Shown here: in pieces, positions 1 through 35,503 of the stretch
Layout: each line of letters starts with the position of its first letter
Position numbering within the stretch: the stretch's first letter is position 1
Assembly: GCA_949286245.1 (NCBI GenBank)
Contig: CASECF010000074.1
Span: forward strand, 1-35,705
Reading direction: 5' to 3'
DNA: 35,705 nt
Origin: an uncultured Alphaproteobacteria bacterium
Lineage (GTDB): Bacteria > Pseudomonadota > Alphaproteobacteria > CAAHEQ01 > UBA3637
Notes under the pieces: model-generated
The model's database searches: none
Told to the model about the DNA's origin: nothing
What the model saw: only the letters and a program-made list of their open reading frames with translations
Position numbers and translations under genes: made by a program

Positions 1-279
1 GAGCGGAAGATTGCTTAATTGAACATCAGCACCTTCATTGTTAATCATTTGGGTTGCAATATCTACGGCATATAAACTGAGTTCTGCAATTGTCTCATTG
101 GCTTTGTGTTTGTTCATGCCGTATCGATAGCCGGCGATTCCCCCTAAAGATAAAATTCCCATAATGACCAAGACACCGAGCATCTCTGTCATGGTTCTGC
201 CCGATTCGGCTGAACCGCTGTTTTGTTGATCTTTCACTTGAGCCTTGAGTTTTCCCTTCAAAAACAAGTCTTTTAACAT
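1..279 (-). CDS. Type IV pilin-like (prepilin) protein, 3' end beyond window
   Basis: This is a partial gene: 93 codons are visible from the ATG at 279-277 and the frame is still open at position 1. A GGGAGGCGAGAG ribosome-binding stretch lies just upstream. After a hydrophilic leader of about 27 residues comes a class III prepilin signature, GRTMTEMLGVLVIMGILSLG. It has Gly at -1, Glu at +5 and a long hydrophobic helix, the pattern cut and N-methylated by a prepilin peptidase. The residue after the cleavage site is Arg instead of the usual Phe or Met, as in the two related genes at 34161-34604 and 35319-34846. It may be a pilus, pseudopilus or secretion-system subunit; assembly genes are not in view. 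Its upstream promoter cassette points away from it (see 297-400). Confidence 0.8.
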   Translation of the reverse strand, partial: MLKDLFLKGKLKAQVKDQQNSGSAESGRTMTEMLGVLVIMGILSLGGIAGYRYGMNKHKANETIAELSLYAVDIATQMINNEGADVQLSNLPL

Positions 280-296
280 CTCTCGCCTCCCAAACT

Positions 297-400
297 GTTT
301 CAAAAAAAGGATCGTTTTTTTGAAACAATTTTAAGGAGTAAAAAAAGCTTGATTTTCCGTTATCCTTTGGTGTATAAAAAAAAGGATCCTTTTCTTGCGA
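297..400. promoter_or_regulatory. Candidate invertible promoter cassette of pilin gene 1, OFF orientation
   Basis: Two A-tract/GGATC/T-tract repeats bound this segment. The gene-proximal one (297-326) is itself a near-perfect palindrome beginning GTTTC and ending GAAAC. The distal one spans about 376-398. Between them, on the plus strand, lie TTGATT (349-354), an 18-bp spacer and TATAAA (373-378), a good sigma70-type promoter reading away from the pilin gene. No plus-strand gene lies ahead of it. The same cassette is found before the gene ending at 34846, and in inverted form before the gene at 34161-34604. Inversion between the repeats would turn the promoter toward the pilin. The phase-variation role is inference. 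Confidence 0.65.
349..378 (+). promoter_or_regulatory. Sigma70-type promoter inside pilin-1 cassette, pointing away from the pilin
   Basis: TTGATT at 349-354 and TATAAA at 373-378 are separated by 18 bp. The hexamers, the spacer length and the CTTTGGTG stretch just before the -10 are shared with the cassettes at 35396-35425 (same relation to its gene) and 34651-34680 (opposite relation to its gene). Confidence 0.6.
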
Positions 401-19992: not shown

Positions 19993-20838
19993 ATGCATTC
20001 AAATTTGGTTTTGCGTATTTTATCGGCGGCGGTTTTGGCTCCGATCGTTTTTTGTACGATTTGGTTTGGTAAGAGTATTTATGAGGATTATTCCATTCCC
20101 CTTTATCCGATTTTATTGGCGGTTTTCGGAACCGGCTTGGCATGGGAATGGGAGAATATGTTCAATAAAAAATTAACGGCAGGTGGTTTGTTAATTGCTT
20201 TAACGGCGTGTTTAACAGCCTTTTTAACAGAGGGAAATCCGAGCTTTGCGCTTTGGATTATTTTGCTCGGAACGACGGTTGTTTTTTGGAAAACGTCGTG
20301 GCTTTCATTTTCTTTGGGAACGTTGTACATTTGTTTGCCGATTTTATCGTTAGGATATATTTATTATATTAACGAAAATGTCAGTCGGGAAATTGTTCTT
20401 TGGCTGTTTTTTGTTGTATGGGCAACGGATATTGGTGGGTATATTGTCGGTAAAACCGTTGGAGGACCCAAGCTTGCGCCGAAGATCAGTGCCAAAAAAA
20501 CATGGTCCGGATTGGTGGGCGGTATTGTATTTGCCATGACGGTTGCGTACGTGTTTGCCCTGTATTTGAAAGCGTATGAATATATTCCCGAAAATGATGA
20601 GACTATTTTTGGACGATTGGTTCTTGTGCTGGTTATTTCTGCCGGTATTTTGGCGGTGATCTCACAGATTGGCGATTTCTTTGAATCATTTATCAAAAGA
20701 CATTTCAGTTTAAAAGATTCCAGCAATATGATACCGGGACACGGAGGATTGTTTGATCGGGTTGACGGATTGTTGTTTGCGTCTGTTGTAACGGCATTTA
20801 TTTTGTTTTTGTTTAATCAGGGATTAGGGGGATACTGA
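19993..20838 (+). CDS. cdsA: Phosphatidate cytidylyltransferase
   Basis: The 281-residue integral membrane protein has about eight hydrophobic segments. The C-terminal CdsA signature is complete: FIKRHFSLKDSSNMIPGHGG followed by LFDRVDG. ATDIGGYIVGK near 143 and the PKISAKKTWSG stretch near 162 are further family blocks. It converts phosphatidic acid and CTP to CDP-diacylglycerol in the inner membrane. AGAAAGGATCAGAAG precedes the ATG. rseP starts 2 nt after its stop; dxr, often found between these two genes, is absent. Confidence 0.96.
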   Translation: MHSNLVLRILSAAVLAPIVFCTIWFGKSIYEDYSIPLYPILLAVFGTGLAWEWENMFNKKLTAGGLLIALTACLTAFLTEGNPSFALWIILLGTTVVFWKTSWLSFSLGTLYICLPILSLGYIYYINENVSREIVLWLFFVVWATDIGGYIVGKTVGGPKLAPKISAKKTWSGLVGGIVFAMTVAYVFALYLKAYEYIPENDETIFGRLVLVLVISAGILAVISQIGDFFESFIKRHFSLKDSSNMIPGHGGLFDRVDGLLFASVVTAFILFLFNQGLGGY

Positions 20839-34160: not shown

Positions 34161-34604
34161 CTAATATCTGTCAAAGTTTAATATCATCTCAGAGCTTTCC
34201 AGAGTTCCTCTAATAAATTTATTTCCGGCAATAGTCTTGATAGCATTAAAGGTTCCAGCATCTACAAACTCAGTAAACATAGAAACAGTTCCATTATCAT
34301 ATCCCGTCATAGAAGTTACTCCGGCCACATTATCGCGTTCGGTTACTTCATCCATGGTTGCGTAAATTGAAAAGTCAACAGAATATTGCTTAGACATGGC
34401 AATGACGGCAACTTTAGAAGCGGTATCGATGATTTCATTGGCACGATAGCGGTTCATTGCCATGGTGTATCCGGCAATCCCGCCGATCGATAACACACCG
34501 ATAATGGCAAGGACACCGAGCATCTCTACCATGGATCGACCGTCTTCAGCGTCTTTTTTATTTGGGGTTATTTTTTGTTTTACAAAGAACTCTTTTAGTT
34601 TCAT
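34161..34604 (-). CDS. Type IV pilin-like protein, gene 2
   Basis: The 147-residue protein has a hydrophilic leader of 23 residues and then GRSMVEMLGVLAIIGVLSIG, a class III prepilin signature with Gly(-1), Arg(+1) and Glu(+5). The hydrophobic helix leads into AGYTMAMNRYRANEIID, which is followed by a variable middle and a conserved end (FNAIKTIAGNKFIRGT...LNFDRY). The leader and helix are almost identical to gene 3 (34846-35319), while the middle differs. GGAGGGAGAG precedes the ATG. This is the only one of the three pilin-like genes whose cassette promoter points into the gene. It is probably a minor pilin or pseudopilin displayed at the surface. Confidence 0.82.
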   Translation of the reverse strand: MKLKEFFVKQKITPNKKDAEDGRSMVEMLGVLAIIGVLSIGGIAGYTMAMNRYRANEIIDTASKVAVIAMSKQYSVDFSIYATMDEVTERDNVAGVTSMTGYDNGTVSMFTEFVDAGTFNAIKTIAGNKFIRGTLESSEMILNFDRY

Positions 34605-34629
34605 TTTTCTCTCCCTCCGGTTCTTGTCT

Positions 34630-34710
34630 GTTTCAAAAAAGGTTCCTTTTTTTATACACCAAAAGATAACGAAAAATCAAGCCGTTTTAAGCAAAAATTT
34701 GTTTCAAAGA
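34630..34710. promoter_or_regulatory. Candidate invertible promoter cassette of pilin gene 2, ON orientation
   Basis: Compared with the cassettes of genes 1 and 3, the inner segment is in the opposite orientation. The gene-proximal boundary is a hybrid repeat: GTTTCAAAAAAGG (34630-34642) matches the fixed flank of the other cassettes, and the following CCTTTTTTTATACACC matches the far end of their inner segment. The change of partner occurs inside the GGATC-like core (GGTTCC here). At the distal side GTTTCAAA (34701-34708) is kept, but the A/T-tract repeat is lost and replaced by AGAAGAAT/ATTCTTCT. This copy may therefore be locked. Confidence 0.65.
34651..34680 (-). promoter_or_regulatory. 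Promoter of pilin gene 2, inside the cassette
   Basis: On the minus strand, TTGATT (34680-34675), an 18-bp spacer and TATAAA (34656-34651), 46 bp before the ATG at 34604. It is the same promoter as at 349-378 and 35396-35425, but facing its gene. Confidence 0.7.
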
Positions 34711-34730
34711 GAAGAATATCCCATTCTTCT
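34710..34730. repeat. Small inverted repeat at the distal edge of the pilin-2 cassette
   Basis: AGAAGAAT (34710-34717) and ATTCTTCT (34723-34730) are perfect inverted repeats separated by 5 nt. They occupy the place of the A-tract/GGATC/T-tract repeat found in the other two cassettes. Confidence 0.55.
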
Positions 34731-34775
34731 AAGAGAATAACGTATATTTAAAAATCTATTTGCCATAAAACACAA

Positions 34776-34810
34776 AAAAACACCCGATCTGAGTGAGATC
34801 GGGTGTTTTT
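34776..34810 (-). terminator. Rho-independent terminator of pilin gene 3
   Basis: ACACCCGATCT pairs perfectly with AGATCGGGTGT, flanked by A and T runs on both sides. On the minus strand it ends in seven T. It resembles the terminator at 34092-34117. Confidence 0.9.
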
Positions 34811-34845
34811 AGAGATTTAGTACCACTACAAACTTTAAAGATTTT

Positions 34846-35319
34846 TTAATACATCTCAAAATTTAATAAAATAGCACTATATTCGGGGCTGTAATAAGTA
34901 CCACTTATAAATTTATTTCCCGCAATCGACTTAATAGCATTAAACGTTCCTTCACTGAGAGGTCCTGTAATACTCACACATCCGTTTTGATATCCATTCA
35001 TACTGGTTGCTCCACTAACATTATTACTCCTTGTCACTTCATTCATCCGGGCATATACATTCGTAACTGGAACACCGGGCTGGGGCTCCCAAAGAGGCTT
35101 TTGTTTGGACATAGCGATAACGGCGACTTTAGAGGCGACATCGATGATTTCATTGGCACGATAGCGGTTCATCGCCATGGTGTATCCGGCAATACCACCG
35201 ATCGATAACACACCGATAATGGCAAGAACACCGAGCATCTCCACCATGGAACGGCCTGATTCAGCGTCTTTTTTATTTGGGGTTATTTTTTGTTTTACAA
35301 AGAACTCTTTTAGTTTCAT
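34846..35319 (-). CDS. Type IV pilin-like protein, gene 3
   Basis: The 157-residue paralogue of gene 2 has a near-identical first 70 residues, including GRSMVEMLGVLAIIGVLSIG and AMNRYRANEII. The middle has diverged (a Pro/Val-rich KPLWEPQPGVPVTNVYARM insertion after MSKQ) and the end is conserved (FNAIKSIAGNKFISGT...LNFEMY). The SD stretch GGAGGGAGAG is the same as in gene 2. The Cys in NGCVSITG is the only Cys, so there is no C-terminal disulfide loop as in classical type IVa pilins. Its cassette promoter points away, so it is predicted silent in the assembled orientation. Confidence 0.82.
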   Translation of the reverse strand: MKLKEFFVKQKITPNKKDAESGRSMVEMLGVLAIIGVLSIGGIAGYTMAMNRYRANEIIDVASKVAVIAMSKQKPLWEPQPGVPVTNVYARMNEVTRSNNVSGATSMNGYQNGCVSITGPLSEGTFNAIKSIAGNKFISGTYYSPEYSAILLNFEMY

Positions 35320-35344
35320 TTTTCTCTCCCTCCGGTTCTTATCT

Positions 35345-35448
35345 GTTTCAAAAAAAGGATCGTTTTTTTGAAACGGTTTTTAGATCAAAAAAACCTTGAT
35401 TTTGTGTTATTCTTTGGTGTATAAAAAAAAGGATCCTTTTTTTGCGAC
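35345..35448. promoter_or_regulatory. Candidate invertible promoter cassette of pilin gene 3, OFF orientation
   Basis: The gene-proximal repeat (35345-35374) is the same GTTTC...GAAAC palindrome as at 297-326. The distal repeat, with A-tract/GGATCC/T-tract, spans 35423-35443. In inverted alignment the two share CAAAAAAAGGATC plus seven T with a single mismatch. The inner approximately 50 bp carries the promoter facing away from the gene. Confidence 0.65.
35396..35425 (+). promoter_or_regulatory. Sigma70-type promoter inside pilin-3 cassette, pointing away from the pilin
   Basis: TTGATT (35396-35401), an 18-bp spacer and TATAAA (35420-35425) on the plus strand. It reads toward the 200-bp repeat at the window end, not toward the pilin. 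Confidence 0.6.
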
Positions 35449-35503
35449 AAAAAATACTCATATAAGTATTTAATTTTAAATGATTTTATAATATAAAAGG
35501 CTT

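Follow-up and report, generated by a model that had tools for sequence, protein, structure and literature searches.

Putative Mpi-type invertible promoter cassettes at the type IV pilin-like genes of an uncultured Alphaproteobacterium

Cells of an uncultured Alphaproteobacterium very probably switch pilin-like surface proteins by turning short pieces of DNA, although the flipping is inferred from comparison and not from reads. The window, a stretch of 35,705 nucleotides, belongs to a 1.47-Mb genome (G000), which was compared with a sister species of the same genus (G001) and with members of other genera, including G002, G005 and G011. The system is, with high confidence, a global promoter inversion of the Bacteroides Mpi type, in a new form and acting on type IV pilin-like genes; here too, flipping is an inference from comparison. 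The evidence consists of MAG consensus sequences; no reads were mapped and no experiment was performed.

In the proposed mechanism, each cassette would be a short invertible promoter of the sigma-70 type, lying between two near-palindromic inverted sites of the form A-tract / (C or G)GATC(C or G) / T-tract, with the centres of the two sites 74 bp apart. A small Mpi-family serine recombinase would turn the segment by cutting each site at its two central bases. In the ON state, transcription beginning near the gene-side site would cross a leader of about 40 bases and a GGAGG-type ribosome-binding site before reaching the pilin-like gene, whereas in the OFF state the promoter would run outward into non-coding DNA. 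One or two genome-wide invertases could set many pilin-like genes independently through about 25 cassettes with the same site, so that the population would display different mixtures of surface proteins, and some cassettes, including that of gene 2, would have lost a site and become fixed ON. This explanation as a whole is considered very likely; promoter activity and frequent flipping remain inferred.

Cassettes and pilin-like genes of the window

The window contains three pilin-like genes with upstream cassettes, whose parts are as follows.

1-279, minus strand: gene 1, pilin-like protein; N-terminal 93 aa, MLKDLFLKGKLKAQ..SGRTMTEMLGVLVIMGILSLGGIAGY, the gene being cut by the contig end
297-326, no strand: cassette 1, putative gene-side recombination site, GTTTCAAAAAAAGGATCGTTTTTTTGAAAC
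349-378, plus strand: cassette 1, promoter TTGATT-18-TATAAA, facing away from gene 1 (OFF)
373-402, no strand: cassette 1, putative distal recombination site, TATAAAAAAAAGGATCCTTTTCTTGCGACA
34161-34604, minus strand: gene 2, pilin-like protein of 147 aa; prepilin motif G22, E27; GRSMVEMLGVLAIIGVLSIGGIAGY
34630-34656, no strand: cassette 2, gene-side boundary, a hybrid of both sites, GTTTCAAAAAAGGTTCCTTTTTTTATACACC; core GGTTCC, changed from GGATCS
34651-34680, minus strand: cassette 2, promoter TTGATT-18-TATAAA, facing gene 2 (ON)
34701-34708, no strand: cassette 2, distal-site remnant GTTTCAAA; site lost, no inverted-repeat partner above chance
34846-35319, minus strand: gene 3, pilin-like protein of 157 aa
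35345-35374, no strand: cassette 3, putative gene-side recombination site, GTTTCAAAAAAAGGATCGTTTTTTTGAAAC
35396-35425, plus strand: cassette 3, promoter TTGATT-18-TATAAA, facing away from gene 3 (OFF)
35420-35449, no strand: cassette 3, putative distal recombination site, TATAAAAAAAAGGATCCTTTTTTTGCGACA

This anatomy is shown by direct reading. Cassettes 1 and 3 each consist of two inverted A-tract/GGATCS/T-tract sites, gene-side GTTTCAAAAAAAGGATCGTTTTTTTGAAAC and distal TATAAAAAAAAGGATCCTTTTYTTGCGACA, with the promoter between them. Cassette 1 has its -35 TTGATT at 349-354, an 18-bp spacer, its -10 TATAAA at 373-378 and the distal GGATCC at 384-389, while the corresponding elements of cassette 3 lie at 35396-35401 (-35), 35420-35425 (-10) and 35431-35436 (core), ending at 35449. 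Cassette 2 reads on the minus strand, TTGATT (34680-34675), 18 bp and TATAAA (34656-34651), towards gene 2. The original prediction had described these cassettes, with promoters facing away from genes 1 and 3 and towards gene 2, together with a hybrid proximal boundary at gene 2; both points held, GTTTCAAAAAAGGTTCCTTTTTTTATACACC combining the two sites.

Within the 341 bp upstream of genes 1 and 3, the top-scoring inverted repeat has a score of 18, a value attained by 0 of 100 dinucleotide shuffles. At gene 2 the best score was 10, attained in 30 of 100 shuffles, and the test for two intact inverted sites failed there, the outer site being lost. The test for a promoter between inverted repeats was passed, most clearly in G011 with its repeats of 30-32 bp. 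An Rfam scan around cassettes 2 and 3 gave no match near the gathering score.

That the products are surface pilins is an inference drawn from the prepilin motif and a modelled helix. G22 and E27 of the motif are invariant in nine sequences, meeting the criterion of G(-1), E(+5) and a hydrophobic N-terminal helix, and the modelled structure has a long N-terminal helix at residues 21-71. No Pfam or NCBIfam family scored above its cut-off on the pilin-like proteins, Pfam N_methyl reaching 12.8-12.9 bits, under its cut-off. Fold comparison of the small pilin placed Clostridioides difficile PilW and PilA1 among the top matches, with non-significant E-values above 0.1.

Genome-wide extent and evidence for inversion

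The window's cassettes belong to a much larger set. Dispersed sites with a common sequence, as expected for global inversion of the Mpi type, are present: the 20-mer GTGTATAAAAAAAAGGATCC occurs in 22 copies at no more than 2 mismatches in the 1.47-Mb genome, against 0 for a reversed-pattern control, and searching with the half-site brings in C59 together with two defective copies, one incomplete (C54) and one broken (C41). The total is about 25 cassettes, nearly all at pilin-like genes, and this copy number is shown. Wherever a contig includes the gene side, the cassette adjoins a gene for a pilin-like protein whose start is of the GRSMVEMLGVLAI..GGIAGY type and which is either small (145-157 aa) or large and Cys-rich (about 450 to more than 650 aa). 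The multi-locus pilin switch originally proposed for three genes is supported, and it extends genome-wide, well beyond them.

Both orientations are shown to exist within the genomes. In G000, 21 cassettes are OFF, 3 are ON (window gene 2, C81 and C82) and 2 are undetermined, while cassettes with intact sites in G001 comprise 8 OFF and 2 ON. These counts are the majority states of the assemblies, and the preponderance of OFF cassettes counts against the proposed explanation. Conservation of the promoter motif is not independent evidence, as the motif formed part of the orientation search pattern. No consistent reading frame was found downstream of OFF promoters.

Comparative evidence for inversion comes from one orthologous locus adjoining nusG/rplK, at which the cassette is ON in G001 (C5, 22487) and OFF in G000 (C20); comparison of cassette orientation between related genomes, proposed originally as a check, was passed on this pair. 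The distal flanks, which contain nusG and ribosomal protein genes, are 92% identical over nearly 2 kb. Once inverted in silico at the two GATC centres, the G000 segment matched the G001 arrangement at almost every base, including both hybrid junctions, whereas without inversion it failed to align with G001 column for column. The two orientations at this locus and the hybrid junctions are shown, between two species of one genus and not within a strain. A second candidate pair lies beside fabI (G001:C77 ON, G000:C61 OFF); its flanks have diverged and it is weaker. Other loci are OFF in both species, namely window gene 1 (G001:C21), C78, C54, C73 and C44.

Gene 2 requires a different reading. The description of one gene ON and two OFF holds for orientation, but not if gene 2 is taken as one phase of a live switch. 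Its syntenic counterpart G001:C71 and the nearly identical cassette of G001:C38 are both ON with decayed sites; since the outer site is gone, the core is altered and the relatives are alike, gene 2 is probably locked ON, a former switch rather than a live one, as inferred from sequence comparison. C81 and its G001 counterpart C34 are likewise both ON with decayed sites. C82 is ON in G000 and retains both sites intact there, the outer one having been lost in its G001 counterpart C28. By the same kind of inference, gene 2, C81 and C82 together probably represent former switches fixed ON. Gene 2 (34161-34710) is also a mosaic: its C-terminal half matches the syntenic G001:C71, while its 5' end and ON cassette are almost exactly those of G001:C38, as might arise if gene conversion exchanges pilin 5' ends.

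An additional reading, regarded as unlikely, holds that besides local flipping, recombination between loci swaps the promoter or upstream flank among pilin genes, in the manner of a shufflon or of mycoplasma vsa/vpma. It is favoured by a palindromic AT centre common to nearly all intact G000 and G001 sites, by the many contigs that terminate in or near cassettes, by a half-site joined to a different pilin gene's body (G000:C41) and by the nusG-side locus, where the flank is more conserved than the pilin gene. Against it, comparing G000 with G001 revealed no large inversion bounded at both ends by cassettes, and the single broken synteny examined is equally explained if a pilin module was lost or gained.

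Several individual contigs deserve mention. A large inter-cassette inversion was rejected as an explanation for the break in synteny at C76/C22; G001:C7 instead lacks the pilin module and keeps a relic site. At about 20640-20690 of G001:C7, the locus of the G000:C76 pilin module, there is no pilin gene, only the relic GTTTCAAAAAAGG; pilin modules are gained or lost. In G000:C41 (about 680-695), the gene-side half-site GTTTCAAAAAAACGAT runs straight into the coding part of a different pilin gene, a fusion that may be a recombination product or an assembly chimera. G000:C54 opens (positions 1-26) at AAAAAAAGGATCG, the exact point where the ON and OFF arrangements part; such a start would be expected if the sample held both states, and is possibly a hint of this.

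Candidate invertases and known inversion systems

The presence of Mpi-family genes is shown: the search for a recombinase, also proposed originally, was passed, Mpi-family site-specific invertases being encoded in the genome. G000 encodes two small serine recombinases, on C6 and C68, each 98-99% identical to G001 genes. The C6 protein, whose gene lies beside dnaJ, scores 308 bits against NCBIfam NF009949 (master DNA invertase Mpi family; cut-off 272), and the C68 protein scores 263 bits, just under that cut-off. The single Mpi-type gene of G011, a genome with GATC cassettes, matches C6 best (67%, vs 55% for C68), which makes C6 the more likely enzyme. Inversion of the cassettes by an Mpi-family enzyme, most plausibly C6, is a likely inference, made without a recombination assay.

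The closest known system is that of Bacteroides fragilis, in which Mpi acts on 13 invertible regions, 7 of them capsule promoters (PMC4747536; system: Coyne et al. 2003), through the site ARACGTTCGTN (PMC8375218). Both systems combine one small serine recombinase with many dispersed promoters and surface structures, and many sites here contain the comparable half AAACG, after which come two central bases and a C. However, the central bases are only TT in B. fragilis and AT, TT/AA, GA or TA here. The present host is an Alphaproteobacterium, type IV pilin-like genes take the place of capsule operons as targets, and about 25 cassettes, with A-tract arms and an inner segment of down to 74 bp, occupy a 1.5-Mb genome.

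The E. coli fim switch of type 1 fimbriae also places a fimbrial gene under an invertible promoter, but it is one locus with a 314-bp element inverted by a tyrosine integrase (PMC9993118). The fim fimbriae are of the chaperone-usher class, not type IV pilins. Among type IV pilins, Moraxella Piv inverts pilin coding sequence, and Neisseria pilS donates coding sequence by gene conversion in pilE/pilS antigenic variation. These systems share with the present one the variation of type IV pilins through DNA rearrangement, and pilin 5' ends look mosaic here too; unlike them, it is the promoter that would invert here, each gene retaining its own cassette.

A search of the available literature found no paper linking invertible promoters with pilins in Alphaproteobacteria, and prior mention in a 2019 Science survey of invertible promoters is not excluded. 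Genome-wide promoter inversion of the Mpi type is known mainly from Bacteroidales capsules, and here it would serve a pilin-like surface family in small-genome, uncultured Alphaproteobacteria. A gut association of the organism is inferred from the habits of such small-genome lineages. For any metagenome of these organisms, the ON or OFF state of the surface genes could be predicted from cassette orientation alone.

Analogous cassettes and the central dinucleotide

Analogous cassettes, with different promoters and arms, occur in three further genera, two of which show both orientations; this brings the total to at least four genera of the family. G005 has 145-bp segments with promoter TTGACA-17-TAACTT, arms TGTCTAAAAAAAA and core GATC (6 OFF, 2 ON, with hybrid junctions), as well as a second site class with core GGTTCC/GGAACC. 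G011 has 30-32-bp repeats, TGTCACAAAAAAASGATCCTTTTTTTGTGACA, and promoter TTGACA-17-TAAAAA, with 1 cassette ON and 2 OFF between the same outer flanks. G002 has 25 cassettes with A-tract GGnnCS sites, the centre being GA in 22, TA in 2 and AA in 1; no clear -35/-10 pair was found in them, so promoter orientation could not be assigned.

In G002, the central dinucleotides of partner sites are compatible in 25 of 25 cassettes (permutation p about 0.0001), and this matching is shown. It meets the expectation for the 2-bp overlap of a serine recombinase, albeit indirectly and in another genus of the family; matching of two variable central bases within cassettes is probably the signature of such an overlap. 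In G005:C8, both cassette sites carry GGTTCC in the same direction, and this cassette should not invert if central bases must match.

Alternatively, inversion might be real but carried out by XerC/XerD or a phage-type integrase instead of an Mpi-family serine recombinase. Such enzymes are encoded in G000, whose only tyrosine recombinases are XerC- and XerD-like genes and a phage-type integrase (C51), and the fim switch is operated by tyrosine recombinases. This is very unlikely, however: XerC and XerD have housekeeping roles and are to be expected in all genomes of the family, cassette-free ones among them, and the matching of exactly two central bases corresponds to a 2-bp serine overlap, not to the 6-8 bp overlap of tyrosine recombinases. 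A tyrosine recombinase gene next to a site in G005 (C11:4627) was considered and dropped as a lead, as it adjoins an apparent priA and is probably XerC.

A more conservative reading dispenses with flipping altogether: the repeats would be palindromic operator or nucleoid-protein sites at a fixed divergent promoter, with opposite orientations due to ancient rearrangement or gene conversion. In its favour, the gene-side site is itself near-palindromic, 5' ends do get exchanged among pilin genes, and three ON cassettes appear fixed in both species. It is nevertheless very improbable, for an operator would not account for three observations: clean inversions, their hybrid junctions lying at one point, in three genera whose inner sequences are unrelated; central dinucleotides that match within but not between cassettes; and OFF promoters without a downstream gene.

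One observation counts against the preferred reading, inversion by an Mpi-family enzyme: Mpi-type genes are present in G003 and G017, yet the pilin genes sampled there have few cassettes or none (0 of 6; one cassette found in G017), so that enzyme and cassette are not strictly coupled. In G016, which is without an Mpi-type gene, no cassette-like repeat was found at 8 pilin genes.

A bolder reading, put forward only as a possibility, treats the central two bases as an address code, in which cassettes with the same centre (AT, TT/AA, GA or TA) recombine only among themselves. If true, several Mpi-family enzymes and several centres would give many mutually insulated pilin switches per lineage, and single centre mutations would gain, lock or re-address a switch, alongside gene conversion of pilin 5' ends. 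The cassettes provide a natural experiment on how switches are insulated from each other by the central dinucleotide. The pilin family itself is very greatly expanded in G002, whose 1.8-Mb genome gives 102 matches to the N-terminal region of the pilins.
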